NCBI GenBank assembly: GCA_021234155.1
Contig: JAJEKV010000083.1
Coordinates: 250,001 to 314,000 of the forward strand
DNA length: 64,000 nt
DNA from: Isoetes taiwanensis
Taxonomy: Eukaryota; Streptophyta; Lycopodiopsida; Isoetales; Isoetaceae
Direction of reading: 5' to 3'
The translations under genes were made by a program, and so were the position numbers. Below are positions 47,075 to 64,000 of this stretch, piece by piece (position 1 is the stretch's first letter; every line of letters begins with the position of its first letter). The notes below the pieces were generated by a model that did not search any database, was not told where the DNA came from, and was given only the letters and a program-made list of their open reading frames with translations.

Positions 47075-48497
47075 CACTAAAATTTTTCGGGGTCTTTTTT
47101 GGCTCCCCAAATTGGGGTCCCCGGCGCGGGCAAATCGCTTAAGCGATTTTGGGCAGGAAAATCGCTCCGCCTGAAAAGGCCCTGCCGGAAAACCGTAGTC
47201 GCAGTGAGGAAAGAAAAAAAAAAACCGAAATCGCTTAAGCGATTTTCAACAAGATTGTACCCTACCACAAGACGGGTTGGGGCGCCCGCAAGATGGGGGG
47301 CCAAGACGGGGCGACGGACTGGCCGCGACGGAGTCGCAGCGATGGAGTCCGATCGCGCCGAAAAAAAAAATATAAAAAAAAAACTTGAAATCGCTTAAGC
47401 GATTTTCAAGGAAAAAGAATCTTGTACCGAAAAAAAAAATATGATGAAAAAAGGGAAAATCGCTTAAGGGATTTTCCCTTGTTTCGACTTCTTTGCACTT
47501 CCCTTCATTTTCTCGACTTGTTTCAGTTGGCGCTCAAGCGATTTTGCAAGCTTCTTTTGTGTTAATTTTTGAAGGTATTGTCGGGTTAAAAATTTTATAT
47601 TTATGGTTGCAGAGTCGTTGGAAGTATTAGAATCGATAAAATGAGTATTAGAATCAATTACCTTTGGAAAATAATTTAGAAAAACATCTCTAAGTGTTTG
47701 ATCAGCGCTAACTTCTCTCGTTCGGATCCTGGTTCATCTCGTTTTGTACCTCCAATGCAGAATCGATTCGCAGATGGGCTAAGATTGCCTCACTAATATG
47801 AGATCGCATTTCGGTGATGGTGTGTCCCCATCCGCGCTTTGTGTCGGCCATTTTGAGTGTCCCGAGATGAATGTAAGAGAGTTTAATGAAGGTGCTTGCA
47901 CGAAGAGCAAAACCCTATATTTCCAAGAAAAAACCTACATTCTACATTCCAACAAACCTGCGGCTTCATTCTAACAAACCCTATCAAACAAGCCGCACTA
48001 TGCTTGGGAGAACTCGGGGAACTACGAAGCGGTGCTCTTTAAGGTGGATCGCCAACAAGACCTTTCACGCGATATGGTACACCCAAGAGGCTTTGTTTTA
48101 TATTGAATTCAAAATCTTAAGCGATTTTAAGCGATTTTTTTTTTTTTCAGACACGCGAAAAATCGCTTTTAAGCGATTTTCAAAATTTTTTTTTCGGCGT
48201 CGGTATTTGACATAAAGGCGTCTTGGTGATTTTTGAAAATCGCTAAAAGCGATTTTCAATTTTTTTTAAAACCACACAGGTTTTTTTTTAAACCACGGCC
48301 AGGTGATCCCTTTTTCCGGCGACGGAGAGTGAAAATCGCTTAAGCGATTTTCACTTTCCCCTTTTGGAAATCGCTTAAGCGATTTTCGCAAATTTGAAAA
48401 ATCGCTTAAGCGATTTTCCCAAAATCGCTTAAGCGATTTTGGTCCGCGCGAGACCCCGATTTCGGGAGCCAAAAAAGGCACCGAAAATTTTTGGGTG
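47075..48497. mobile_element. Non-autonomous TIR element with palindromic subterminal repeats
   Basis: The left end starts CACTAAAATTTTTCGGGG, then TCTTTTTTGGCTCCCCAAAT (47075-47122). The right end, inverted, reads CACCCAAAAATTTTCGG, then TGCCTTTTTTGGCTCCCGAA. That is about 55 bp of good inverted similarity running into the first palindrome on both sides. The interior is not a gene: minus- and plus-strand frames are short. The CACTA-like left end and subterminal repeats suggest a CACTA-type non-autonomous element, but the right end is CACCC and no 3-bp duplication is clear. Confidence 0.7.
47124..48442. repeat. AATCGCTTAAGCGATT palindrome family
   Basis: About eight perfect copies of AAATCGCTTAAGCGATTT and five decayed ones (for example AATCGCTAAAAGCGATT and AATCGCTTTTAAGCGATT) lie clustered near both ends: 47124-47540 and 48110-48442. 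The middle 600 bp has none. The end-clustered layout is that of subterminal transposase-binding repeats. Confidence 0.9.
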
Positions 48498-48617
48498 TTC
48501 CCCTGCCGAATTGGAATATTCAAAACTGGCCTTCGACATCAACCGGATGCCTCCACCTCCATTTTTGGGTGAAAATTCTTTGCTTGAAGCCGGAAAAGCC
48601 ACATGTGGCCACCCTTA

Positions 48618-49363
48618 TTGTGTCCTTGCCACTTATAAAAACTATCCTCTTGGAGTTACCACAACACCATGTAAATAATTATATATTTTGTTAGTACATT
48701 GTGTTCTTGCCACTTTTGAAAACTATCCTATTGGAGTTAGCACGCACTGGGTAACCAGACATTCTCTTTGTAGTACGATGTTCATTCTCTTTGTAGTACG
48801 ATGTTCTGTTTGCAGTCAGTCAGTTGCACATCTTAGAGTTAAGATGTTCTAATGATTAGCATGGTCACTTTAATCTCCTTTCTATGTGTAGTTTAACATT
48901 CTCTTTCTCCAGAAATGATCCACTACAGATTTATATGTGCAGTTGAATTGTACGCAGTAAACTAAAGTGACTGAGATACAAGCATCCAGTGATGGATTCT
49001 ACTTGGTAAATCTGCTATTAACTATTAAAATAACTAAGTCGATTATTTCCTTGAGCCAATTCTATTGCCAACGACGATGCAACATGAAAAGAAAAAACTG
49101 CAATTGACCCGAGCTTGAGCAGAAACACATTCATTTAATAAGGCATACCTGATAGAATTATAATAAGAAATTTTGGTATGATATTACTCCGTTGGCCAAA
49201 TGCCAATCCAATACTCTCTGGCCAGATGGTAATTCTATACTATGCTATATGCAGGAAGTTGTACTATGAGGCTTATGTGCACTTGAAAATTGGAAGTTAC
49301 TAACTCCACTATGATGAATTAAACTATGCACAGATCTAAATGCACTGGTGAACCATGCACAGG
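48618..49363. other. Intergenic DNA with small duplications
   Basis: Imperfect direct repeats sharing TTGTGT(C/T)CTTGCCACTT and AAAACTATCCT(C/A)TTGGAG occur at about 48618 and 48692. A similar TTGGTACATTGTGTTCTT lies at 46919, left of the TIR element. A 25-bp tandem pair (CATTCTCTTTGTAGTACGAT) lies at about 48761-48805. No gene. Confidence 0.5.
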
Positions 49364-49864
49364 CACTACAAGAGAATGATGGTTAAACGTCATAACATTA
49401 GTCAGAGAGCCTTTGTAAAATAGACAAGTGCCCAAACCATATTCCTGACGAATGAAGTGACGAGTTTTATCTGACGAACATTAGTCAGCATATTAGTCAG
49501 AAGATTAGTCAGAGTAAAAGTCATGTTATTAGTTATATGTTTAGTCAGTTTCTTAGTCAACAATTTAGTCAGATGACTAGTCAATGTAATAGACAGAATC
49601 TTATTTTGTTAGTCAGTTACTTAGTCAGTTTATTAAATAGCTAATTAGTCAGCTAATTAGGTACGTAATTCGTCAATGTATTACTTAGATATTTAGTCAT
49701 GATATTAGTCAGATACTTAGTCAAATCCTTAGTCAAAAAATTCGTCATAGAAATAGTTAGAATATGGGTCAATTATTAGTCAGACAGTTGGTCAGGCAAT
49801 AGTCAGACAATCAGTCAGGTTATTTGGCCACGACATTAGTTATTAGTCAGAAGAATAGTCAAGA
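49364..49864 (+). repeat. CACTA terminus and TTAGTCA subterminal array
   Basis: CACTACAAGAGAATG marks the end. From about 49395 to 49864 the word TTAGTCA (or ATAGTCA, TTCGTCA, TTGGTCA) recurs roughly thirty times at 10-20 bp spacing, mostly in one orientation. Such arrays bind the TnpA-type protein in En/Spm and bring the ends together. Decayed copies suggest an ageing element. Confidence 0.88.
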
Positions 49865-50139
49865 TATAATTCTATTAACATTCGTTACAATAGACATAAC
49901 AGCAATTATATTTGTTACAACAGATAAAATCGAATAAAATGGGATTGACATTTGTGAACAACAGATACAATTGAATAAAAGACAAAATGTAAAGATAAAG
50001 ACTTGATTACAAATAAGTAGTCATTACAAGTAGTCAAAACTTAAGACTTGAATACAAATCAGTAGTCATTAAAGATAGTAAGAGCAAAGTGTTAGAAACA
50101 CATCAAACTTGAAGAGTTCACATTTTGCGAGTACTCATG

Positions 50140-53100
50140 TCAGCCTCTTGTCTTTCGAAGTGACTTATATTGCGCAATGTTCCGTGCAATAGTCCCATCT
50201 ACAAATTCAGAACCCAAATTTCTGCTAAGTCCTCGAGTCTTGCTCTTCTTCCCTTTTTGTCTCGATGTGGATGCATTATCACTTCTCTTGCTGCCCTCCT
50301 CCACATCATTTCTCTTCTTCATAATCATCTCTTCCATACTCCTTGCACTCTCCAATCCCTTCTCCATAACTGCGTCGTAGAAGGCATCAATGTCAGCAGC
50401 ATCTTCATGTGGCAAATCAGGGGCATCTACACGACAATTTAACTCCACCGCAATCCCCACATCATCTTCCACATCTTCCGCTCTAATCTCCTCTACTCCT
50501 TCCACTTCTTGCCCACCTCCATCAATTACATGGGCATTCTCGCCTTCCTCAACTCCATGGGCTGGCTCGCCTTCTAGATCCACATGAGCTAGTGCTTCTT
50601 CTTCCCTTCGATCTTCGTGCGCCTTGATGTTTGCTTCCTAAAACAGAAGTTGTTTAAGATGAGAGACGGATATATCAGAATGCTACAAAGTAGAAATTAC
50701 CTTCAATTGTTTTCTTCTTCGCTGCTTATTCTTCCTCTCGCCCTTCTTCCCTAAGAAATGCAACGCCTCAAACTACAAAAGAACAAAAAAATCAGAAATT
50801 TTGAGCTCTCACATTTGATCAGAAAGAACAAAAAAAATCAGAAATTAGAACTAAACAAAACGAATACAAAAGCTTACATTTCCAGGAATTCTCCCTTCGG
50901 CAATTAGAGATTCTCGATATGCCCTGTATGATCTCTTCTTCTTTATCGCTGCCATAGTTGTTGCAGAAGGGTAAGCACCCCAATCTCGGAACTACATAAG
51001 ATAAAAAAATAGAGTTAGTCAAGAAAAATCTTTGATTGCTGATCCACTCTCATGGTTAGATTGCAACTTTGGTTCTCCTGATAAAGGTGAGCATGCTGCC
51101 AAGGATGCTGCCCTTTTTGCTGCAAGTGAGAGAAGATTTCGTTTCTCCTTTACTTGATGGTTCTGCCCTCCTTCATCAGAAATAACAGAACTTGCTTGTT
51201 CTTTGTCGTCCATCTTCTGATCTTCTAGAGCTGCAGACATTAGAGACCCTTTTCCACTAATCAAGTTAACATATCTTTCTTCTCATCTAAATTCCGAGGG
51301 GAGATATTAGCCATTGTCTGAAAGCCAACTCTTGAACTCAGGATTCTCACATGGTACATGGCAGCTTTCATGCAATGCAGATGTAACAGATGTAAGGCAG
51401 CAGAACCAGCAGCATGTTTTCCAGTATGGCTAATCTGAACGCCATCTCTTGCTCTGGTGCTATGCTACCTTTATTAGCATATTGGATTCAGGAAAACACT
51501 TGATCTGATGCTTGTCTTTGGGGTTTGTAGTCCCCTGAATTTAATCATTTTTCCTAGATGCATGATTGACAATATGCATCCAATGTAAGATACGATTGAA
51601 AAAATCTCAACCAATTCATTGAATCATACTTATCATGAAGCACATCCAGGCACGGATATGGAGGATTTGATAATCAGGGATTGATCCATCATCTCCATGC
51701 AGCGACAGTATTAAGAGGAGTACCATGCCAACCTAGAACCAAATAACCTTTCTTCATATGAGGAGTGTAACCATTTTAGTAGTAAAGATTAAGCAGGAGT
51801 GTGGCTTGACTGATTGCTCGATTGCTAAGAGGAGCAGCCCTGTTTTGCCACCCCTTTCTGTGTCTGTTGGATGTGTGCATCAGACCTGAAGCTATATCGA
51901 AGCCCTGTTTTGCCACCCCTTTCTGTGTCTGTTGGATGTGTGCATCATACCTGAAGCTATATCATGATCTAATCATATTCAATTCTGAAGAGTGATATTT
52001 CTTCAGAAGATGTGCTGTGAGACTGATCTGCTTGGGAGGCATCTTTGCTTGAAAAGCAGGGATTCTCCACTGTATCATCTCAGAATGCAGGAATACTTTT
52101 GTTCCAGCTCCCACTTCAGAGAAGAATTCCCTGATTGTGCCAAAGATGGAGCCCAAATGTGCTTTTAGCTCCAAAAATGTAGCATCAAGTCCAATTAGGG
52201 CCAGCAGTGGCATTAGTCATAGTGGTAATAAGAGAAAGAGGCATTACAGAGATGTTAGATTGCGTTCATCTGGTAAGTGGGCTGCAGAAATACTGGATCC
52301 TTACCAGAAGGTCAGGTTGTGGCTAGGATCATTTGGGAGTGCAGAAGAAGCTGCCTTTACACTGTAGCAACGAAAATCAAAGGAGGCAAGTTCACAAATA
52401 CTGTAAGAAAGTCTGCTGTGAAGAAGAGGCCTGACAGAGTCAGCCTCCATAGCTTTACCTAGAGAGATGGTGGAAAGGATGGAAATGATGCAGCATGAAC
52501 TTGGTTTTTAAACGAAATGTTAACATGCAGCACATTGAAGACAAGCCCTTTTGTACCCTTTTTGCAGCACATTCAGGACAAGCTCCTTACCTTCTTACTC
52601 AATGAACTTCTGGGTCAACCAGAGATAACAATCCGTGGTGCGGGGCCTGAGCGTTGTACCTATGCAGATGTTAGGATGGCCCTATTTGATAATCAGCCAG
52701 GTCTGGTTCCTATACAGCATGTAAGAAAGAGGAGGAAATGGTATTGGGATGCTGCAGGTTTATTCGAGGATGGAGAGGAGAGTTCAGCGATTCGAGAATG
52801 AAATTTCTCAAGCTCAGTCATCATAGGACAGTACAAAATCTTCACGCCCTCTTTTCAAACTGGACATTGAACTGCGTGAAGATGGCAGAGTGGCAGTTCA
52901 TCTTGAGAGGTTGTTAGAAGGCTTATTGGGTTCTGAGGGGCCTGGACATATGAAAAGTTAGGTTGCCTTGAAATACAAATGCATTTAAATTGACCTTGCT
53001 TATGAACTTGCTGTTTCATGGAGCAAACAGTCCAAAATAAAGCATATTAGAGCCACAACAGATTTCTGACCTTACTGTTTTATGGAGCAAACAATCCAAG

Positions 53101-54051
53101 ATAGAGCATATTAGAGCTAACAATAGTAAATCCTGGATTCAAGTAATAAAAAAGGAAAATACAAGAGAAGTTAACCCAGTACTTACATAATCCGCGGCCG
53201 ATTCCAAAGATGTCCCCTCACTGGCCCTATTCTTTTCGCCATTAGGTTTTCTTGATGCCGCTGCCTTTTTCTGTTGGTGACGTGGTTTCTTTTTATCCGC
53301 AAGAAACCTCTCCCACACAAAGATCTTTAACATGGTTTGGGGCTATTTTCTTATCACTTCTTCGCAACCAATCCCTATACAACATGACAACAATGTTAAA
53401 TCATGAACAAATCATAAAACAAGATCAAATACATTAGTAGCTTACTTCCAATGATTAAAAATTCGAGCTGCCCTCTTCAGTATATCAGAAGCAAATAAAC
53501 CTTTACCAAAACGCTTCTCCATGTGTCTCACTAGTCTCTTTTTGGAGATCTCATCCACCTTCTTCCAATCTTTATCAATCTCTGTGCAATATACTTTCAC
53601 CGCATGGCCGAGGGCCGTCTTCCATGTCTGTCCATTCTCATCTAGATGTATCTCCCCTCCTTGCACCATAGTCACCTATAATATACAACGAATAGTTATT
53701 AATAATAATGCACAATAAAATATAATAATAATATCCAACAATGCATTCACAAAATGCAAATAAGCATCTACCTTTTCCTCTTTAGGAAGACGACGAAAAG
53801 TAACTTCATAATCTTCATTTGGCTCCTCGTCCCCTTCATCACTTATGCTATCATCTGTTTTTTCATCTTCTTCTTCATTCTCACTTGCTGGCGCATTAAT
53901 GGATCTTACACTTGTGGATTTCTCACTGCGACAACAAATGAAAGGACAGGTTAGCAAGTGCATTTTAAAACATGAAGTGCTTCACCAAATACCTTGATCT
54001 TCTCTGGTTTTTGGACAAGCTTGAACCTCGCCTTCCATTAGAGGTATGCAT
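50140..54051 (-). CDS. TnpA-like CACTA accessory protein, eight exons, uninterrupted
   Basis: Minus-strand exons are 54051-53993, 53925-53772, 53675-53446, 53374-53332, 53270-53187, 50991-50878, 50772-50701 and 50637-50140. All introns are GT/AG and phases join to 417 codons plus stop. The N-terminus is Ser- and acid-rich. The central exon 3-4 part, [20 protein letters not shown] and [18 protein letters not shown], resembles the Ptta/En/Spm (Transposase_24) domain. A Lys/Arg-rich stretch ([16 protein letters not shown]) is a likely nuclear signal, and the end is acidic then basic. By family it would bind the subterminal repeats and assist TNP2. Intron 5 (50992-53186) is 2.2 kb and contains an AP2/ERF fragment. 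An upstream open stretch at 54238-54038 overlaps the start in another frame and may be leader. The exon chain was inferred by eye. Confidence 0.68.
52137..52462 (+). pseudogene. AP2/ERF domain fragment, frameshifted
   Basis: The frame contains [20 protein letters not shown] then [17 protein letters not shown], the first two-thirds of a single AP2/ERF DNA-binding domain. The diagnostic YRGVR and GKWAAEIRDP blocks are recognisable, with Gly changed to Asp. After AAF the frame shifts; the remainder of the domain, [14 protein letters not shown], continues in another frame. AP2/ERF proteins are nuclear transcription factors of stress and development. This copy is broken and lies inside an intron of a transposon gene, so it is most likely a captured gene fragment. 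Confidence 0.85.
52517..52801 (+). other. Unrecognised open frame downstream of AP2 fragment
   Basis: A 94-codon frame contains [20 protein letters not shown] and [20 protein letters not shown]. The composition looks protein-like and it lies in the same captured block and strand as the AP2 fragment, so it may be the same host gene further downstream. The family is not recognised. Confidence 0.3.
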
Positions 54052-55766
54052 TTTGAGTAGCGACATGTGCAAGCTGCTTGTCAAGGGCTGCCTTAAATTT
54101 TAACATGTCAGACTGGTCCATTTCTGCAATTATTGCAGTGATGTCTCTAGAATCCTCTTCCTCACTGTCCTCATGTCTTCTTCGTGAGGTTTCCCCCTTG
54201 TTTTTTGAGCTCTCCCTTGGCGCCACTAAAAAACATAAGCCAATAGTTAGATTAAGCAAAAGTTTGCTGAACAAATAAGTGGACAAGATAAGTGCATCTG
54301 GATAAAAATCCTCTTTCCTTTTAAATAATCTACTTATCTTCAGATAATCTTGCAATACTTGAGACTGCTGTGTTAATTTAAGGCCTGCTTAACTAGAAAC
54401 AACTTCGCTATGCTTATACTTGAATCATTGGTATATGAGTCTAGCTTAACCTTTATTATTACAATGAACAATGGTCGAATTATCTCCTTAGTTAAAGGAA
54501 GTTATCTGAATACTATTGAACGACATATGTCTGTTACAAGGACTGCATGCACTCTCCGATAGCACAAGCTGTTTTATCAATCTTAATCTGGCCGTCTTCT
54601 GCAACCTCGGTCTTAGATCACTCAGTTTTTCTTCTGTATTTTTCTGCTCTTAACGTCACCGAATTGGGTACAAAGAACATCATCATTCGAGCAAATAAAG
54701 CTAGAATCCATAAGACAAGCATTGCCAAATGCCGAAACTGCTCTGAAAAATCCATGCCTCGTCTGTGGCCATATCTTTCTACTAATCCGATCATTCTATT
54801 GGGGACAAACGGGGCGGTTTCAGGCATCTGAACGTGGGGATCTTCAATACTCTCTGTAGAATGGGGTTGTTCCATGCGGCCCTGCTAACAGCGGTGGCTT
54901 ATCTGTGCTTAAGCTATTTTTGATATAACCATTCCGAGAAAAGAACTGAGCTCTGGATCCATTCTTCAATGAAAGAGATGGAAGGCGCGCTGGAAGGCAG
55001 ATAAAAAAAAATAACTTAGGGTTAAAAAATGCTTACTTATTACGTCTCCCTCTTTCTCTTTCTAGCTTAACCTTGCTCAGTATTGGCCCGCCTGTCTCTC
55101 TCTCAAGCTCAATCTCGATCAGGGCGCCTCGATCTCCATCAAGAAAACAAGCTGGTGAATTTGGAATTTGGCGGCGGATTATTAGGTAAGAGAAAATGAA
55201 GATTAAAGAACGTCACATTTTTTTCATCCCCTTTTTATCTGACGTTTTGTTAGACACCAAATTCGTCACTATCCATTCTATTACAGTTTTGTCACTACCA
55301 CTACTGAAGTACTTATATTTTATTCTAATGGGTTTGACAAATATAACACACGGGTTTTATGCATCAAGCCAAGCTTTTGCATAAATATGTTCATATGATG
55401 TTCCCTATAAGGCTAACTAGCATTACTATGTTTCCCGTAGTTGTATCGAAGTTGTACCATTCTAATGTAAAGAAAATTGCACTAGGAATTTGTAATTGGC
55501 CTGGCATGCTTGCTTTGCAAATTGTCCTGGCGATTGCGCCATGCCACCTATGTATTGCGTACTGAGGACGTGAGGTGTTGATCAACAAGATACCTAGTTG
55601 CTAAACACATGTCTAATATTATTGTGTATATTGTGTGTCCATTAAAATGCTTGTATTTTATTATTGTTATGTGTGTGTTAGTGGGTTATGTACTATTGGG
55701 TTTTTTGCAGGGCTTATATCTGCGCACATTCAATGACTCCGTCATGAGCACCCCAGTGCCTCTGCA
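54052..55766. promoter_or_regulatory. Intergenic region between divergent TnpA-like and SET genes
   Basis: The 1.7 kb between the two divergently transcribed genes probably holds both promoters. A minus-strand frame (54875-54618, 85 codons, VERYGHRRGMDFSEQFRHLA) has a hydrophobic stretch but no recognised domain. TTAGTCA subterminal repeats are not seen here. No TATA box was chosen. Confidence 0.3.
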
Positions 55767-57213
55767 ATGAGTGCATCTAGGCACCCCAGAATGAGCACCT
55801 CCGAGCAACCTAGCAACTCCGCTATGAGCACCTCCGAGCATCCCAGTGGCTCCACTTCGTCAACCAATAAATCTTCAATGCCGTCTATTGATGAGCTTCG
55901 AGCATTAAGGTTTTGATCTATCTAACTCTTTCTCTCTCATTTTGGTTTGGGCAGCCATTTGATCACTTGGGTATTTACCTTTTGCCTATAGAAATGAAAC
56001 TTCTTCATCTTCCGCATCAAGAAAAAGAGAAGCAACAAAAACTTGGCTTCGAGATGATCCATTGGAGCGACTTGCTAGACAGTACGACAACTGTTGGTGC
56101 AAACAATGCAAAGGCACTAGCAGAAGAATGTATACCACGAGACGAGATCACAAAATGAAGTACGGTTTGATGCCAAATGCTCCACCTCCGTCCGACCTTG
56201 AGTTAAATGCACGACAAGAAGCAGATGAGGTAAAAGTGTGTATTAAGCATTTCTATTATTTATTTCATACAATATTCTAATCCTCTTTTAATATATATGA
56301 CTTGTCATAGTATTTGGACATGCTTCATAAAAATCCAGAACTTGCTGAGACATCAGATAGCCCCAGCTCATCTAGATCATCGGGTCCGCTACCCTGGTAT
56401 TCTAGAAGTTCTAGTTCTAGTTCAAAAGAGACTCAGGAAGTTGAGAGAGGTCGCACGAGGGGAAGTACAGTGGCTACAAAACTTAAGAACCGTTTCAAGA
56501 AAAGCTCGCATAGCCTTGTTCATGCATGTGAAACAAAAAATGACATGGCTGAACAACTCCCACCTCACCTTAGAGCCTCTATTGTTCCATTTGTTCGATC
56601 ATCCCTAGGCTGTTGGGAAGGGGAACTGCCTCCAATGTTGAAAGAGTTTATATATTGGGGTCACAAGTACATGATTGCACCTTCTTTAGAAATACCAGAA
56701 GCTGGAAGGGGTTTGTACATAATGGAGCACGTGAAGGTCCCAGCTGGACACTCAACTGTGTTGATGGTGTTTGGCGGACCAAAGTATCCTTGGGGTTTAT
56801 GGCATAAACTTGCTTCTTTTATGCCTAGTATGTCTACTTATGCCATGGCATTGAATGCGGCATCTTTGAGTGAGCAGAGAGATCGTGGAGAACATACCCC
56901 ACGCAGTGCACGCATATACATTGATGGCCGACCAAGTGTTCATGGAAATATTGCAGCACTTATAAATAGCTCTCGTGGTCATCCCGAATTAACAAATGCA
57001 GAATTTGAAGAGACTACAGAATATGATCCGTGTTACATGAATGGGTATGTTGGACCGTATGTGAGAGTTTGTGCCATACGCAACCTCCGTCCTGGAGAGG
57101 AATTGTTTGTCAACTATCCTTTCAAAAGAGAGACCCCAAGGCGAGTAGAACGTAAGAAGCGTGGTGAACCAATTGTTGTGCCCTATGGAAGGAAGCGTTG
57201 CCTAGATTCATAG
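55767..57213 (+). CDS. SET-domain protein inside CACTA element, three exons, uninterrupted
   Basis: Exons are 55767-55909, 56022-56229 and 56311-57213 with GT/AG introns. The frame closes to 417 codons plus TAG. Residues 1-48 are Ser/Thr/Pro-rich with repeated MSTSE(Q/H)P. Exon 2 has CWCKQCKG, a small cysteine cluster. Ser-rich and basic stretches follow (RSSSSSSKETQE, KLKNRFKKSS). The SET domain fills the C-terminal half: AGRGLYIMEHVKVPAGHSTV, then YIDGRPSVHGNIAALINSSR (the GNxAxxINSS substrate/cofactor motif; canonical enzymes have GNxARFxNHS), TNAEFEE, VRVCAIRNLRPGEELFVNYP (RxIxxGEELxxxY). The usual NHS is NSS here, so catalytic activity is uncertain. SET proteins methylate histone or other lysines using S-adenosylmethionine in the nucleus. 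The gene could reduce silencing of the element, which is speculation. Confidence 0.75.
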
Positions 57214-57690
57214 TGATGTAGCATTGCCATTTAAACAAAATGATGAATATTTTGATTTTTTATGGTTTATGGGCTTTGATGATGTTAATCATGTAGTTAT
57301 GTTGGTTAATTGTTGTGCCTAGATTATAAGCATGTAGCATTTACATTTAAACAAAATGATGAGTATTTTGATTTTAAATGTTTATGATTTTGATAATGTT
57401 ACACGTAGTGACCTTGCTTAATCACGTAGTGATAATCACGTATTGTTAATCACGTAGTGATATTGCTTTGATGATGTTAATCATGTAGTTGTGTTGGTTA
57501 ATGGTTGTGCCTAGATTTATAAGCATATAGCATTTCCATATAGCATTTCCATTTACATTTTGATGATGTCAATCATGTAGTGATATTGCTTAATGGTTGT
57601 GCCTAGATTTATAATCATAGAATGATTTTTCTTCATATAGCACGTTTATATAGTGATTTTTCTTCAAATATAACATGTTTATAGCATGTT
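57214..57690. repeat. AT-rich imperfect tandem repeats after SET gene
   Basis: Units share TTTAAACAAAATGATGA(A/G)TA, TTTGATGATGTTAATCATGT and GTTGTGCCTAGATT. There are about three degenerate copies of a unit of about 120-125 bp, the first beginning inside the 3' UTR of the SET gene. CACGTAGTGA occurs several times at 57410-57460. No gene. Confidence 0.7.
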
Positions 57691-60132
57691 TTTCTACATG
57701 TAGCATGTTTATAATCTTATTTCCAATGCATGTTCCTCTTGGTACCCGCTTGCAGGCCACCACACAGTACCGCGCCCATCTGAAGGACACAAAGGCGCGG
57801 TACCTTGCCAAGCATCAGGGGGAGATGTTCGGCCTGCTGGACACTCATCCTCGAACCTTTTGGCGCAGAGTGCTTCAAGGCCAGCCTGTACCTTGGCTGT
57901 GGGACATCACACCCGCAAAGTGGGGAATAAAGACTTGCAAAGCAGCTTTTATGACCCCGCCAGTGGACGCAGCGTTTCCATACCCCCCGTGATGGCCCCC
58001 CATTGGTTCTCGTGGACGAGGATGTTGAGGAGGGCCCGCGAACGGCTAGCTAATGGGAAGGCAAACACCTCGATGCAGGTATGCAGGCCGAAGTTACTCA
58101 AGTGGGCGGTGGCGTACCGCCAGGCCGGGTCCTCACACCCCTGCTTCAACAGAGCATTGCAGGAGGGTTTCCCCGACAATGGACCACAAGCGTGGTTGTT
58201 CCCATTCACAAGGCGATTCCACAATCAGTCCGCCATTAACGGACGATCATGGTCGGGTTCAGTATTTGCCAAACTGGCTGGCATTCTCGAAGTAAGCGAT
58301 TGACCTGCTGGCCATGAGGCAATGTGCGAGCCCCCTCACACAGGGCTTTTAAACCGCCCACTCAACGCATTGACCATATCTTTACGCCGCTGGCACCGAT
58401 TGAAGACACCGGAATCATCGGCCGGACTTGTATTGTCGCTTTGTGGACTTCGCAAAGCGTTTTGATGATGGTCCCGGGAAAAGTCAGTGGGCTAGACAAT
58501 AATCGGGCTCACGCCGCGCGTAATGCCATATACAAAGTTGTATGAGAGTTGTTTTGTGGGGATGGGTACCACGCCAAGCATTCACCAAGAGTATCGGTCC
58601 CAAGCAGGTTGCCCCTCTCGCCAACACTTTTTGGCCTCTACATTGATCCGGTTAGAGCCCCGGCTTATCGAAAGCATGGGGGATGGTATACGCCTTTTGC
58701 ACCGTGTCATCCGCCAGCTCATCTATGCGACGATGTTGGCTCGCCGCCCACACCGAAGCTATGCGGGCCTCAATTGATGCCCTAGACACATTTTGTCGCT
58801 ACGAACATTACGCGCCAATCTGCCAAGACCGTGGTGGTTCTCATATCCTCTTCTTCCGCCACCCCATGCCTCCGCACTCACATATCGGGGGGAAACATGG
58901 GCGCCACGCCCACCTACAAGTACCTAGGGGTGGAGTTCCCCTCCTCGCCTGGGCTGGAGGCCTTATCCGCTATGGTGACAAAGAAGTCGAAAGCGCTTTA
59001 TGCCATGCGTAAATAAATGGGCCACCAGCAGCGTAGCTATATGATTGGGGCCATCACCACCACTGCTCCTCGCACCGGTCGAGCCCGGCCCCTTTCAGAC
59101 GGGGTCGAGGTTTGGGACCCTGGGTCGCCTCTTTGGCACTGAATGACTTGGAGCAGGTGTGCGTAAGGCATTTTGGCACGGGCACTTGGGGTGAAACCTT
59201 CAGTCCCCTATCGATTCGACTGGGCAGAAACCGATTCTACGCTTATTGAGCCTTTTGATAGACACATCGCCTATTTCTAAAGTGGTTACTATGGGTGATG
59301 CTCGGCCCCGCGACTGGCTTACACCGCGGGCCATGAGTCCCATGCGCTTTAGGGCCCGTTGAGGGGTAAGAGAGATCGCTGGTTCGCCAGATGGAACGGC
59401 AGGTGAGCATGATGCGCATGGGGGCGCAAGGGCCGATCGTGGATGTACCATGGAGTACCTAGATGCTTGTTCCTTGGCAAGCTCGGGACCCCATTGCTCT
59501 AGAGCAGGTCAAATGGCCTATTACAAGGAGCACATCAACCCCAGTGTTAGCTGGGCCCACGCCTTTACCTGCGCTCCCAAACGCCTCAAAAAAGCGCCAG
59601 ACTCATTGCCTCCATTCGCATTGTGTGCCCACCATCTTCGTGATCGAGACGGCAGGTGGATTGGGAGCCCCGCCAGACAAAGCTCGCCGGGCCAAACGGT
59701 GCCATTGAGGATGAGTCTCACACTTTCCAGAGTTGCCCGTTGTTCAAATTCGATCCGCCAGATACGCCCCTTAGTACGGCCGGACGTGCCCTTTGCATTT
59801 GCCCGATGAACACACCGGCCAAGACGCCCCTCCGGGGTCATACATCCAGAGGTACCGACCTGCTGAGGTCACATTTGCCCCCGCCGGTCTGTCCACGACT
59901 AGGCACTACGGGTGGTGCATGACCGATATATTGGGATGTTTCGTGATTTTATATGATTAGCACGCTTGTCGGCTAGGGCCGATTGCTGCCACACGGTTTT
60001 TCCTCAAACCCTTCGGGGGGGTTTTAATCCGGCAAGAATCCCTTTGTCATTGCGTTTTTTGTATTGGGTCCCATAGACCGATTGGTCTCTCGTGGGACGA
60101 TAAAAGTACCTTCCTTCCTTCCTTCCTTCCTT
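57690..60132 (+). mobile_element. LINE (non-LTR) relic with TTCC tail
   Basis: A GC-rich block is inserted in AT-rich CACTA DNA. Its plus strand encodes broken pieces of a LINE reverse transcriptase and ends with GGGTCCCATAGACCGATTGG, then TCTCGTGGGACGATAAAAG and a TTCC run (60109-60132). A tetranucleotide tail in place of poly(A) and the same 3' sequence also at 13.3 kb define a family. The 5' end (about 57690) is set by composition; no TSD was identified. It separates the SET gene from the TNP2 relic, so it inserted into the CACTA element. Confidence 0.75.
57750..59930 (+). pseudogene. LINE reverse transcriptase, many frame breaks
   Basis: Pieces recognisable in shifting frames are, in order: a linker QGEMFGLLDTHPRTFWRRVL; RT-like RLANGKANTSMQVCRPKLLK and LLKWAVAYRQAG; QAGCPLSPTLFGLYID in two frames (about 58598-58640); a damaged YxDD box (HLCDDV, near 58735); TYKYLGVEF (about 58914-58940); and DESHTFQSCPLF (about 59710-59750), a zinc-knuckle-like C-terminal segment. 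The order matches LINE ORF2 proteins. Every segment is separated by a shift or stop, so it is dead. It would have encoded target-primed reverse transcription in the nucleus. Confidence 0.75.
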
Positions 60133-60207
60133 ATCTTTTTCTTTTTCGTTTTGTTTTTTTTTTTATCGTCACATGTATAAATTCCCACAAACAAATAAAT
60201 CTGACTT

Positions 60208-61190
60208 GTGAATTTGCAGTCAAGCGATGATGGGAATGAAAACTCATGTGCTGAAAGTGGCTTTCATGCTGAGAGTGGTTTGATGGAAGCTATACAAAAT
60301 TACTTCCCAACCAATAACTCTAACAATGATGCAAATGGTGATGATGAGAGACCTATCACAGTTCTAGAGAAAGAGACCAGCAAACCACTATACCCAAATG
60401 GAAAGATATCGGCCTCGGCCAAGATGCATACTCATCCTCAACCTACAACACAAATTTAACTGGAGTAATAATAGTGTAGATGATCTTCTCAGGTTAGTAA
60501 TTTGGTTCGAGTTACAAGTTTTCGTTCGTCATTTTTTTGTTTTTTTTCTCTCACTTGATATTTCTTTTTTTTTTTTCTTTTTTTAACAGTTTGCTAGCTG
60601 ATTATATACTTCCAAGTGATCATTGTCTTCCAAAATCAAGGAGGGACGTTAAACAACTTTTGCAAGAACTAGGTTTGCAATACAAATGCATTCATGCATG
60701 TGTAAACGATTGTATACTCTTTTTTCGAATGAATATAGTGAGATGAATGTATGTCCCAAGTGCAATGAGCCACGATACGATGAAAAGCAAAGTCTAAAGT
60801 GCCAAAGAAAGTCTTATGACATATGCCAATCATTCCACGCCTTCAAGTTATGTTTAAGTGTCCTTCTAGCCCAATTCATGGACTTTCATGCAAAACATCG
60901 AAGCAATGATGGTGTCTTGAGGTATCCAACCGATGGTGAGGCATTAAAACATATAGAAGACAAGTGGAAGCATTTTAAGGACGAGCCTAGGAACGTTCGT
61001 TTGGCTTTGGGCATGGATGGTGTTAGTCCATTTAGCACATTGTCGTCTACTTATAGTGTTTGGCCCATTGTTGTTATAAACTACAATATACCACCTTGGA
61101 TGGCAACTAAAGCAGGCCATTTAATGCTCACACTGATAGTTCCAGGTAAATATCTTTACGTAGCATTGCAACTTGTCTTTATATAGGTTA
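60208..61190 (+). pseudogene. CACTA TNP2-type transposase, truncated and frameshifted
   Basis: A likely acceptor TTTGCAG precedes the exon start (60220). The first frame (acidic, NNSNNDANGDDERPI) shifts near 60400 to NLQHKFNWSNNSVDDLL. After an intron (donor 60494, acceptor about 60590) come YILPSDHCLPKSRRDVKQLL and YKCIHACVNDCILF. A second shift at a T-run (about 60720) leads to CPKCNEPRYDEKQ, then LALGMDGVSPFSTLSSTYSV and WPIVVINYNIPPWMATKAG, ending at an intron donor near 61145. This is the N-terminal half of TNP2 with its paired-Cys zinc region. The C-terminal half (DUF4216/4218-type parts and the rest of the catalytic region) is absent before 64000. The element is therefore non-autonomous as seen. 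Confidence 0.88.
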
Positions 61191-64000
61191 CAGTTTTTTG
61201 GATTGTTTTTGGTTTGTTTTTTGATTTAATTTTGGTCAAATAAAAGTTTCAAGATGAATTACTGGTAGCCGTTGTGTTAAAATAGCATAGTCTATTTTAA
61301 ATTGGTTGGAAAGCTTGTGATTTACCAGGTAATTAAAGGTTCTCATAAGTATGATGACTCAATGTAGTATGGCAAGTTCCTGGTTATGAACCTTAGCCCA
61401 AAATATGGAGGACCTTCAAGGCAACTGTTGCAAGATAAGGATAACTCAATGCTGTATGGCAAAGGTACTGTGTTTGTGAGTATAGCCCAAAATATGGATG
61501 GCTTCCAAGGCAACCATTACAAGTGGCAGTTTAAGGTTAGTTATTGACTTAAATAGTTTTTGGACCAATTTGACAAAAATACTAGGGAATGAAACCTCCA
61601 TGATTTCAGGATGACCCCAAAGTGTTTATGACTTAAGGAGTTTATAGCTTGTATGATAGGTAAATTGTTGTGAATGTCATTAAACGTAAGCAATGGAGAA
61701 AGGGATACATTGGGGCATCTATGGTTTTGGACAACCAAAAAAATAAAAGGACTGGAATGATAATTATAGGTTTAAAAATAAATTGAAATTATTATTATTA
61801 TTATTTTTTTTTGTGTGGCAGCATTGATGGAAAATGAACCCTAAAATCGTTAACCCTAAATTCATTAATCGTGGAGTTTCCTAACCCTAAAACTTGGTTG
61901 GCGCCCTAGTTTTTAATGTGCAGCCCTATCACATACAGGTAATACAGATGGAAAGGTCCCAATCGATTCTGTTATGAGCAGACGGCCATCGTAAGCTGAA
62001 CTTGTCTTCTAAAATTCATTTCTATCTATTTTTTAAGGCCAGGATCTTATCAACAAAGAACAGACAGCTAGAGCCGATTTGATTGCCTCTGGAAATATGA
62101 AGATCATGAGTTAGGGAAACCCCGAAAGTACAATTCAACTCTGTAAAAATATGCGATTAGGGCTATTTCGCATAAATACTACAGCTACTGTTTATGGAAT
62201 GTTAAGAGATGAGCAAACCGTGGAGGCCTCCAGCCCGCCCTTGGACGCATAAGAGCCAAGCTGATTGATGCTCTTAGAAGACATGGCATTGAGTCTGTCA
62301 CGAGGCTCAACTTACCAAAGCCCAACTTTGAGGCTTGCGTAATCAATAAAATTGATCCTAATAGGGAGACAGCGAGAAAAGAAAGATTAAGAGTTTCCTA
62401 CCCATGAAGCCATGCAAAGAACGCTTCCAAAGAAAATCCCAACTATCAAGCTAATTTGGATATGGTTGAAGACTCTATCAATGAGGAAGATGACTTAGAC
62501 TTCGAAATTCAGCCTAATCAGGTCGATTGCTAATGCATTTTGGTTTTTCTGATTCATGTTTCAAAACTAGCATTGCAGTAGGTATATTTAGCATCATGTT
62601 TAACATCTTGATATAGTGTAAATAAGCTTGATTGCCAGTAATTTTTCTTCATCTTCTATGCTCCATCTTCGATAACAGAATGGGTAATAATTCTTACTAT
62701 ATCTATTAGGGGTATGCACAACTCCAGACATTTTCTAGCCTTAGATTTGTGTTATTTAGTGGCTGCTATATGGGAAATTACCATTCAGGCTCTATAAGAT
62801 TGCTTATTATAAGGAAATTATGATAAATCTGGCTGTGGTCTTTTCTCATAATTGATTCTTTAAAATGGGTTGAGCACAGAACACAGGTCCAGGATCTTTA
62901 TGTTTAGGTGGGCAGTGAGGTCAAGATGTGAAGAGTTAAATCTAATAATCACGGACCTAAGTCCGAGATCTGTTTGGTTAAATGAATACTGGTTGATTAC
63001 ATGTTGAAGAGAATAATCTTAACCTTTTAACGCACATAGGCACATAGGCCTTTAGTTTTTTGACACCTTACTACTTCTAGTCTATTTATGTGGAAGTCTT
63101 CTAACCCTTAAACTCCTACTGACCTCTACCTTTAAGGATTTGGCTTTAAGAATATTAAAATCACAGTTACAGTTCTTTAATCCTCTGACCATATGATTTA
63201 GAGTTATGGACAGAATTAACAAGCCCTATTGTATGCAGAATTGATTATCTCAGATTTTAATTATGCATGATAATTCCTTGCTAGTAGACGTCTTTCTTCA
63301 GTTAGCATAATAGTTCAGATGTTATGTTGCTCATTAATAGTTCAGAATATCTTAAAGATTTAAATCAGTTTCCTAGAATAATCATATCAAAGGGATTAAA
63401 GATTTTATAAAGTTCTAGGTAGGATCTTGGCAGTATATGATAAACAGGACACTTGCAAGGGATCTTTTTAGTATATGGCATAGATTAATTGATTCAAAAA
63501 TGATAAGCAGGTTTTGACGAATGGGTAAAGGGCGATAAGCCAAAGAATCTCATTGCTTACCTGCTAGTCCATTCACATTTTACCCTGTTTTGGCTAACTT
63601 GTGTTTGTTGGACTGCAGGTAACCGAGATTCTTTCTCCCATACTCCTTTGATTTTTTGTTGGAAATCATTTCTTTTGTACAAGCAACTGAGTTATTGGCA
63701 TATGTGGTATCTCAATTTATTTGATTACGATCATTTGCAAATATACAAAGGTATATTGGTATTTCTGTTAAAAACATTTTGGTTAATCATCATAATGGTA
63801 TATGATTCTTCTTAAAATTCTGCCTCCTTACTGATTTCTGTTGGTGAGTTATTGTTCTTTAATTTTTTCCTAAATTTTAGATTTGTACAAGTAATTATTA
63901 TGTAGCAATTCTTTCCAGTCTTTAGGCTATTTTTAAGGCTTCCCTTTGGCTTTAGCCAAAAGGGGTTGATAAGTCCAATAATTTCAGTTTTGGAATTATT
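61191..64000. other. AT-rich DNA after TNP2, no gene recognised
   Basis: The imperfect direct repeat TAGCCCAAAATATGGA(G/T)G occurs at about 61396 and 61484 with shared CAAGGCAAC. A telomere-like CCCTAAA word occurs a few times at 61838-61890, probably by chance. Scattered AT-rich ORFs lack domains. The missing second half of TNP2 was looked for and not seen; it may lie beyond the window or be lost. Confidence 0.5.

Follow-up and report, generated by a model that had tools for sequence, protein, structure and literature searches.

In Isoetes taiwanensis (Lycopodiopsida), the TNP2 transposase gene of CACTA transposons that are bounded by terminal inverted repeats (TIRs) and target site duplications (TSDs) contains an exon encoding a SET domain, and this exon is under constraint and phase-compatible with the transposase exons around it. 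One copy begins at position 49364 of the 64,000-nucleotide stretch analysed here (contig JAJEKV010000083.1, positions 250,001 to 314,000, forward strand; hereafter the window), where a preliminary description had placed a SET gene between the TnpA-like and TNP2 genes of a CACTA transposon. On balance, we favor a reading in which this CACTA family makes two proteins from one promoter by using an alternative terminal exon, with predicted targeting and counter-silencing. Alternative splicing around shared exons, to which the gene structure points, is the likely part of this reading, and a targeted counter-silencing function is proposed tentatively.

The SET exon in complete elements and in the TNP2 gene

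Two complete elements were examined, C1026:8837369-8848177 (10,809 bp) and C101:656677-667018 (10,342 bp). Both have CACTA repeats at both ends, both contain SET and TNP2, and both (2 of 2) are flanked by perfect 3-bp target duplications, AGG/AGG in C1026 and ACA/ACA in C101. The terminal 500 bp of C1026 hold 14 copies of the motif TAGTCA at one end and 16 at the other, compared with 3+2 in the 9.8 kb between them. Pieces of C1026 matched Transposase_21 and DUF4218 at or above the Pfam cut-off and DUF4216 under it, and its SET exon is open. In addition, at least 19 of the 100 exact CACTA termini listed have a SET match no more than 12 kb away and are oriented as an element end should be; this is a lower bound, since 18 SET loci, selected by eye, entered the comparison. 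A location of SET outside the element is ruled out by C1026 and C101, in which it lies within the TIRs and target duplications, and the right CACTA end does not precede it. The earlier suggestion that SET is carried by a CACTA element was thus borne out, and we regard SET as a component of the element with near certainty.

The window copy has the left end of such an element only; this end and the exons are as follows.

49364..49394, + strand: left terminal inverted repeat, CACTACAAGAGAATGATGGTTAAACGTCA..., matching C1026 and C101 at both element ends
49364..49864, + strand: subterminal repeat block of TAGTCA units, homologous to 124-594 of the C1026 element
55767..55909, + strand: exon 1, Ser/Thr-rich, from the spliced model
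55992..56229, + strand: exon 2, with the motif CWC-x2-C-x-G...R-x2-H...G and a phase-0 donor at 56229/56230
56311..57213, + strand: exon 3, SET domain (Pfam SET) with its own stop (57211-57213)
60220..61145, + strand: TNP2 transposase exons, a relic with frame breaks; phase-0 acceptor at 60219/60220, donor GT at about 61146

The CACTA terminus and subterminal repeats proposed for 49364-49864 were confirmed. The terminus at 49364 reads CACTACAAGAGAATGATGG, and, when at most 2 mismatches are allowed, this 19-mer occurs 407+360 times genome-wide and a reversed control 4+4 times; TAGTCA was counted 19+1 times in the block, compared with a mean of 0.35 and a maximum of 3 in 500 shuffles. The spliced SET model consists of three GT-AG exons and is open, as had been described, but it encodes 427 amino acids counted from the first ATG, not 417 codons. 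Transposase_21 was detected in the window at 60689-61183 (E 1.1e-29). The frame there, read from open reading frames (ORFs) and translations, is broken relative to the C1026 copy, and by these departures the window TNP2 is a relic, in agreement with the first description.

The genome (1.66 Gb, 1110 contigs) was searched with the SET segment and with the TNP2 exon. The SET search gave 1291 first-look candidates, the best 150 of which were scored to yield 156 matches (150 listed rows used), and the TNP2 search gave 1585 candidates, of which the best 150 were scored (150 listed rows used). The 150 listed SET rows, from the best 150 of the 1291 candidates, merge into 139 loci; SET is therefore multi-copy, and a single-copy host gene is ruled out. 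The check that the preliminary description had proposed showed SET beside TNP2 in other copies: at 74 of the 139 merged loci a TNP2 match on the same strand follows at a distance of up to 15 kb, in 65 of these 74 at 668-1167 bp, and among the scored matches none of the 139 loci has TNP2 upstream or on the opposite strand. Conversely, 76 of the 150 TNP2 rows (best 150 of 1585) lack a SET row. Since only the best candidates were scored, the 65 unpaired SET loci do not show that SET genes occur alone; when the downstream DNA of 8 of them was opened, 7 held TNP2 exon pieces, including one that ended at a contig end after 1073 bases, and one (L042) held none. The SET matches are 42-100% identical, and no separate host-like group was seen among the best 150 of 1291.

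Gene structure was compared in 18 copies, which were chosen for TNP2 linkage and spread of identity and cannot serve to estimate how often SET and TNP2 occur together (the 139-locus count serves for this). Across these copies, whose SET identity is 51-97%, the exons found always follow one another as exon 2, SET exon and TNP2 exons. By tblastn, SET and the second TNP2 exon were detected in 18 of 18 copies, the first TNP2 exon in 17, exon 2 in 16 and exon 1 in 4. A phase-0 exon 2 donor reading E|GTA is present in 17 of 17 rows (the window plus 16 copies), and a stop codon follows just past the SET match in 18 of 18 copies and in the window. From this stop, 200-400 bp of non-coding sequence leads to a pyrimidine-rich AG acceptor, after which the TNP2 exon continues in phase 0. 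In each of the 18 rows evaluated, which comprise the window and 17 copies, an in-frame stop lies upstream of that acceptor (in L010 the motif search gave no acceptor). Because this stop is always present and an in-frame ATG follows the last stop in only 8 of the 18 rows, TNP2 probably needs an upstream exon.

The upstream exon is suggested by elements without SET. Ten TNP2 loci lacking a SET match (L023-L032) were opened. In L028, L030 and L031, a CWC-x2-C...H exon precedes the TNP2 exon across GT-AG phase-0 introns of 110, 474 and 69 bp, with no SET between them; in L027, only the last part of the CWC-type exon was recognized before the TNP2 exon, across a GT-AG phase-0 intron of 70 bp, again with no SET. 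Of the other loci, L024 keeps a SET remnant, L029 retains just an exon-2 fragment without the first TNP2 exon, neither exon 2 nor SET was seen in L023, L025 or L026, and L032 was covered for only 1 kb upstream. Eight exon-2 residues (C, W, C, C, G, R, H and G) do not vary among 13 rows, of which 11 carry SET and 2 do not. Since SET-less relatives join exon 2 straight to TNP2, exons 1 and 2 are the 5' end of the transposase gene, which contradicts the earlier view of a separate three-exon SET gene between TnpA and TNP2: only the third exon is SET, and it lies in a transposase intron. With its own stop, and in phase 0 throughout, the SET exon appears to be an alternative terminal exon of the transposase gene. 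In L030, the intron between exon 2 and TNP2 seems, by eye, to contain a second partial copy of exon-2 coding sequence.

Selection and history of the SET exon

The SET exon is under purifying selection. When 6 pairs that do not overlap were pooled, its ratio of nonsynonymous to synonymous differences (pN/pS) was 0.236 (Fisher p 2e-35), which bears out the possibility raised in the preliminary description that SET stayed under constraint; the pooled ratio of TNP2 was 0.141 over 5 pairs. The window TNP2, being frame-broken, was left out of the TNP2 pool (its pair gave 0.40), and the pair L012/L013 was left out of both pools (SET 0.74, TNP2 0.08). Among 21 SET comparisons of substitution rates, 15 gave an omega of 0.09-0.23 and L011/L012 gave 0.35, and four were saturated. 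The SET protein alignment was made without L002 and L004, which have stops in their translations, and without L006, which has a stop listed in its match; with their stop codons passed over, L004 entered the pN/pS pools and both L004 and L006 the comparison of distances, and L002 was used in neither.

The two parts of the gene also diverged together. SET and TNP2 distance matrices of 17 copies were correlated with r of 0.894, a value reached in 0 of 2000 permutations, and the same four groups appear in the SET tree and in the TNP2 tree. The correlation and the common groups indicate that SET travelled with the transposase through the divergence of subfamilies; for these copies, the alternative put forward earlier, that SET arrived later, is contradicted. 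SET-less copies are scattered over the TNP2 tree, so losses or gains took place more than once. The SET-less clade of L026, L027, L028 and L031 may be ancestral or may have lost SET, the TNP2 tree being unrooted and its deep forks weak.

Proposed function and alternative explanations

The window SET exon matched Pfam PF00856 with E 6.5e-6 and 26.9 bits against a cut-off of 22.4, and Pfam SET was found at E<=0.01 in 16 of 16 aligned rows, the window scoring 27-28 bits when the alignment run is included. Many SET enzymes carry NHSC, and the motifs of the S-adenosylmethionine site are GxG, NHxC and ELxxxY. Most rows have GRG or GRS in the GxG region (AGRGLYI in the window), and most also keep (E/D)-(L/I)-xxx-Y (ELFVNY in the window), whose last Y is invariant, and the NHxC position reads N-S-S or N-S-F. 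The predicted methyltransferase activity is plausible. Structural searches gave no significant relative: a single-sequence search of the PDB with the SET exon returned 2 chains, both ribosomal eL38, and a profile search returned 3 chains with E of 0.15-1.3, namely a hexon-interlacing protein, which is not a SET protein (0.15), 8sr6 ("Eukaryotic huntingtin interacting protein B", 1.2) and 5czy (the Legionella effector LegAS4, 1.3). Single-sequence AlphaFold2 on the SET segment gave a predicted local distance difference test score (pLDDT) of 33, and the model was not used. NCBIfam gave no match, and a scan of viral contigs with the SET alignment gave 121 pattern matches, none of them a relative.

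We propose that exons 1 and 2 would encode a Ser/Thr-rich, zinc-knuckle-like and possibly metal-binding N-terminus, and that the fate of exon 2 would decide which protein carries it. Splicing to the TNP2 exon would give the transposase, and splicing to the SET exon, with its own stop, would give a SET methyltransferase that has its N-terminus in common with the transposase. This common N-terminus could bring the methyltransferase to the DNA or to a partner of the transposase, where the SET protein might set an open or favorable mark by histone methylation, or might methylate a protein of the element, and the element would stay expressed or mobile against host silencing. In its most specific form, a splice switch joining one N-terminus to either a DDE transposase or SET, with a histone methyltransferase aimed at the family that evades silencing as a mobile SETMAR-like factor, the proposal is more doubtful still.

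Several observations weigh against this proposal. Constraint is not uniform: L012/L013 gave a SET pN/pS of 0.74, part of L013 looking frameshifted, and L014/L018 gave an omega of 1.12. Stops occur inside SET in L002, L004 and L006, with one stop in the C101 SET match. Elements without SET persist, which means that not every member needs it, and clustering of the SET label on the TNP2 tree is weak, with 6 changes required and 37 of 500 shuffles requiring as few. By tblastn, exon 2 was undetected in L010 and L015 and exon 1 in 14 of 18 copies. The SET core reads LINSS in place of NHSC, and activity is not assured. No Pfam domain was found in the exon-2 alignment (best E 0.03, in 1 of 13 rows), and DNA binding by exon 2 is a guess from its motif. 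Finally, 8 of 18 rows have an in-frame ATG past the last stop and ahead of the TNP2 acceptor, which would permit a separate TNP2 start in those rows; only the members of a close pair (L004/L005, L007/L008 and L016/L017) have such an ATG in common.

Among the alternatives, a catalytically inactive SET protein acting as a regulator or decoy, for example by competing with the transposase through the common N-terminus, is unlikely but the most probable. The replacement of NHSC by N-S-S and the modest Pfam score of the window (27-28 bits) would fit it, but motifs of the GxG and ELxxxY types are for the most part retained and under constraint, and the 8sr6 chain, whose alignment covers the C-terminal part of SET, also lacks NHSC and has INFS there (E 1.2, not significant). 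Less probable is a nested independent gene, in which SET would have its own promoter within the TNP2 intron, TNP2 would use another first exon and the N-terminus would not be common to the two proteins. Besides the ATGs before the TNP2 acceptor, a Met at the fourth codon of window exon 3 speaks for such a gene. However, L011-L013 lack this Met, the intron that separates exon 2 from SET is constant in place and phase, and exon 2 is joined directly to TNP2 in SET-less elements.

An in-frame fusion, in which SET would be spliced into TNP2 from a donor close to the SET exon's end to make one SETMAR-like polypeptide, was rejected and is very improbable. In all 18 rows, the SET exon alignment does have phase-0 GT dinucleotides in two columns, but they read GTA or GTG in only 12 and 9 of the 18 and stand in poor contexts. 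No strong conserved donor was found within the SET exon in the 18 rows, and splicing out of this exon is therefore unlikely; moreover, the SET stop is kept in 18 of 18 copies and in the window. In two copies, L012 (C54) and L013 (C1018), the intron between exon 2 and SET is itself open in frame, giving frames of 435 and 427 amino acids, and intron retention there would also yield the full SET protein. Passenger capture, in which a host SET fragment was taken up in the manner of Pack-CACTA and merely carried, is the least credible explanation and is largely refuted, since, although CACTA elements are reported to capture gene fragments (PMC13317346), SET is under purifying selection (pN/pS 0.236) and has diverged with TNP2, its intron position, stop and phase are the same in copies down to 51% SET identity, and no separate host-like SET group was seen among the best 150 of 1291.

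The proposed two-protein system resembles several known transposons and differs from each. First, HarbingerS and MuDR transposons of the oomycete Phytophthora are reported to carry SET genes (PMC12730594, citing Kojima and Jurka 2014), and the SET ORF of proto-Helentron-Pi, a Helentron, is given as about 153 amino acids without introns (PMC4067079). Like the elements described here, these are DNA transposons with a SET methyltransferase gene, but they belong to other superfamilies in another kingdom, and the accessible text of these reports describes no shared transposase exon; the transposase here is Transposase_21, not Harbinger, MuDR or Rep/helicase. Second, fungal EnSpm/CACTA and other transposons carry a TET/JBP dioxygenase that has been proposed to counter silencing (PMC12730594). 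These also join the CACTA superfamily to an enzyme of epigenetic marks, but the enzyme is a DNA-methylcytosine dioxygenase in fungi, in contrast to a SET protein in a plant. Third, in SETMAR, the primate SET-Hsmar1 fusion, the DNA-binding domain of the transposase is reported to aim the methylase at transposon ends (PMC6326780), and this is a precedent for the targeting proposed for the common N-terminus. In both, a transposase part would direct a SET methylase, but SETMAR is a single fused and domesticated host gene, whereas the enzyme here is in a mobile element and the common part would arise by alternative splicing. Fourth, VANDAL elements of Arabidopsis are described as encoding VANC anti-silencing proteins (PMC10398659, PMC5735166). 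These would be alike in that a plant DNA transposon encodes its own counter-silencing factor, but VANDAL elements are of the MuDR type. To our knowledge, VANC has no methyltransferase domain.

In canonical En/Spm, a single region read on one strand yields both TNPA and TNPD. The elements described here are like it in their CACTA TIRs, 3-bp TSDs, subterminal repeats and a TNP2 transposase gene with introns, but they differ in having a reverse-strand gene upstream and a SET exon in a transposase intron. Introns in CACTA transposases are also reported (PMC4158355). A SET domain in a plant CACTA element was not found among the listed titles and opening lines of abstracts of the open-licence literature, the search excluding Repbase Reports and subscription papers. 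A transposon with a chromatin enzyme is known; as far as we have seen, the superfamily, the host and the shared-exon arrangement are new.

Plants silence their transposons through methylation of histones and DNA, and a constrained histone-methyltransferase-type exon within a transposase gene would be an offensive tool, with which the question of how a transposon sets its own chromatin state would become testable. If our proposal is true, a CACTA element of a plant joins the scattered transposons with acquired SET or TET enzymes, as a mobile counterpart to SETMAR.

Other features of the window copy

The remaining features of the copy are as follows.

50140..50995, - strand: reverse-strand "TnpA-like" gene, part 1, with the ORF 50140-50637 (-)
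53149..54245, - strand: reverse-strand "TnpA-like" gene, part 2, with 80% DNA identity to C1026 2140-3206
57620..60155, no strand: GC-rich insertion in the transposase intron of the window copy, without a match in C1026
61196..61196, no strand: last base homologous to C1026 in blastn comparisons of that element with window 48001-64000 and with the full window

This copy lacks its right part and right terminus: homology to C1026 ends at 61196, and the right CACTA terminus that the preliminary description had recommended finding was not found in the 64-kb window. Stretches at about 51.0-53.1, 54.2-55.1 and 57.6-60.15 kb have no counterpart in C1026.

The reverse-strand stretch upstream of exons 1 and 2 is conserved in place between the window and C1026, and 50197-50995 has 72% DNA identity to the corresponding place in that element. 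The label "TnpA-like" reflects position and strand only: no Pfam match above the cut-off was obtained for window 50140-50637 (-), window 53676-53981 (-) or two reverse-strand queries from C1026.

Downstream of the SET stop, at 57199-57619, a short stretch is repeated several times, as seen from overlapping BLAST matches to one place in C1026. The insertion that follows is degenerate and, by eye only, has reverse-transcriptase-like frames and appears retroelement-like; Pfam gave no match for 57657-57989 within it. The C1026 homology that flanks the insertion is only 30-50 bp apart in that element, and a 100-bp piece of the insertion (60022-60127) also matches within the C101 element.

Elsewhere in the genome, an rbcL-like ORF was noticed at 1042-2469 of L034. 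On C1034, at about 9.88-10.50 Mb, there are 17 of the 100 listed exact 19-bp termini, all on the + strand and many about 20-55 kb apart, and these look like a tandem segmental array with one terminus per unit.

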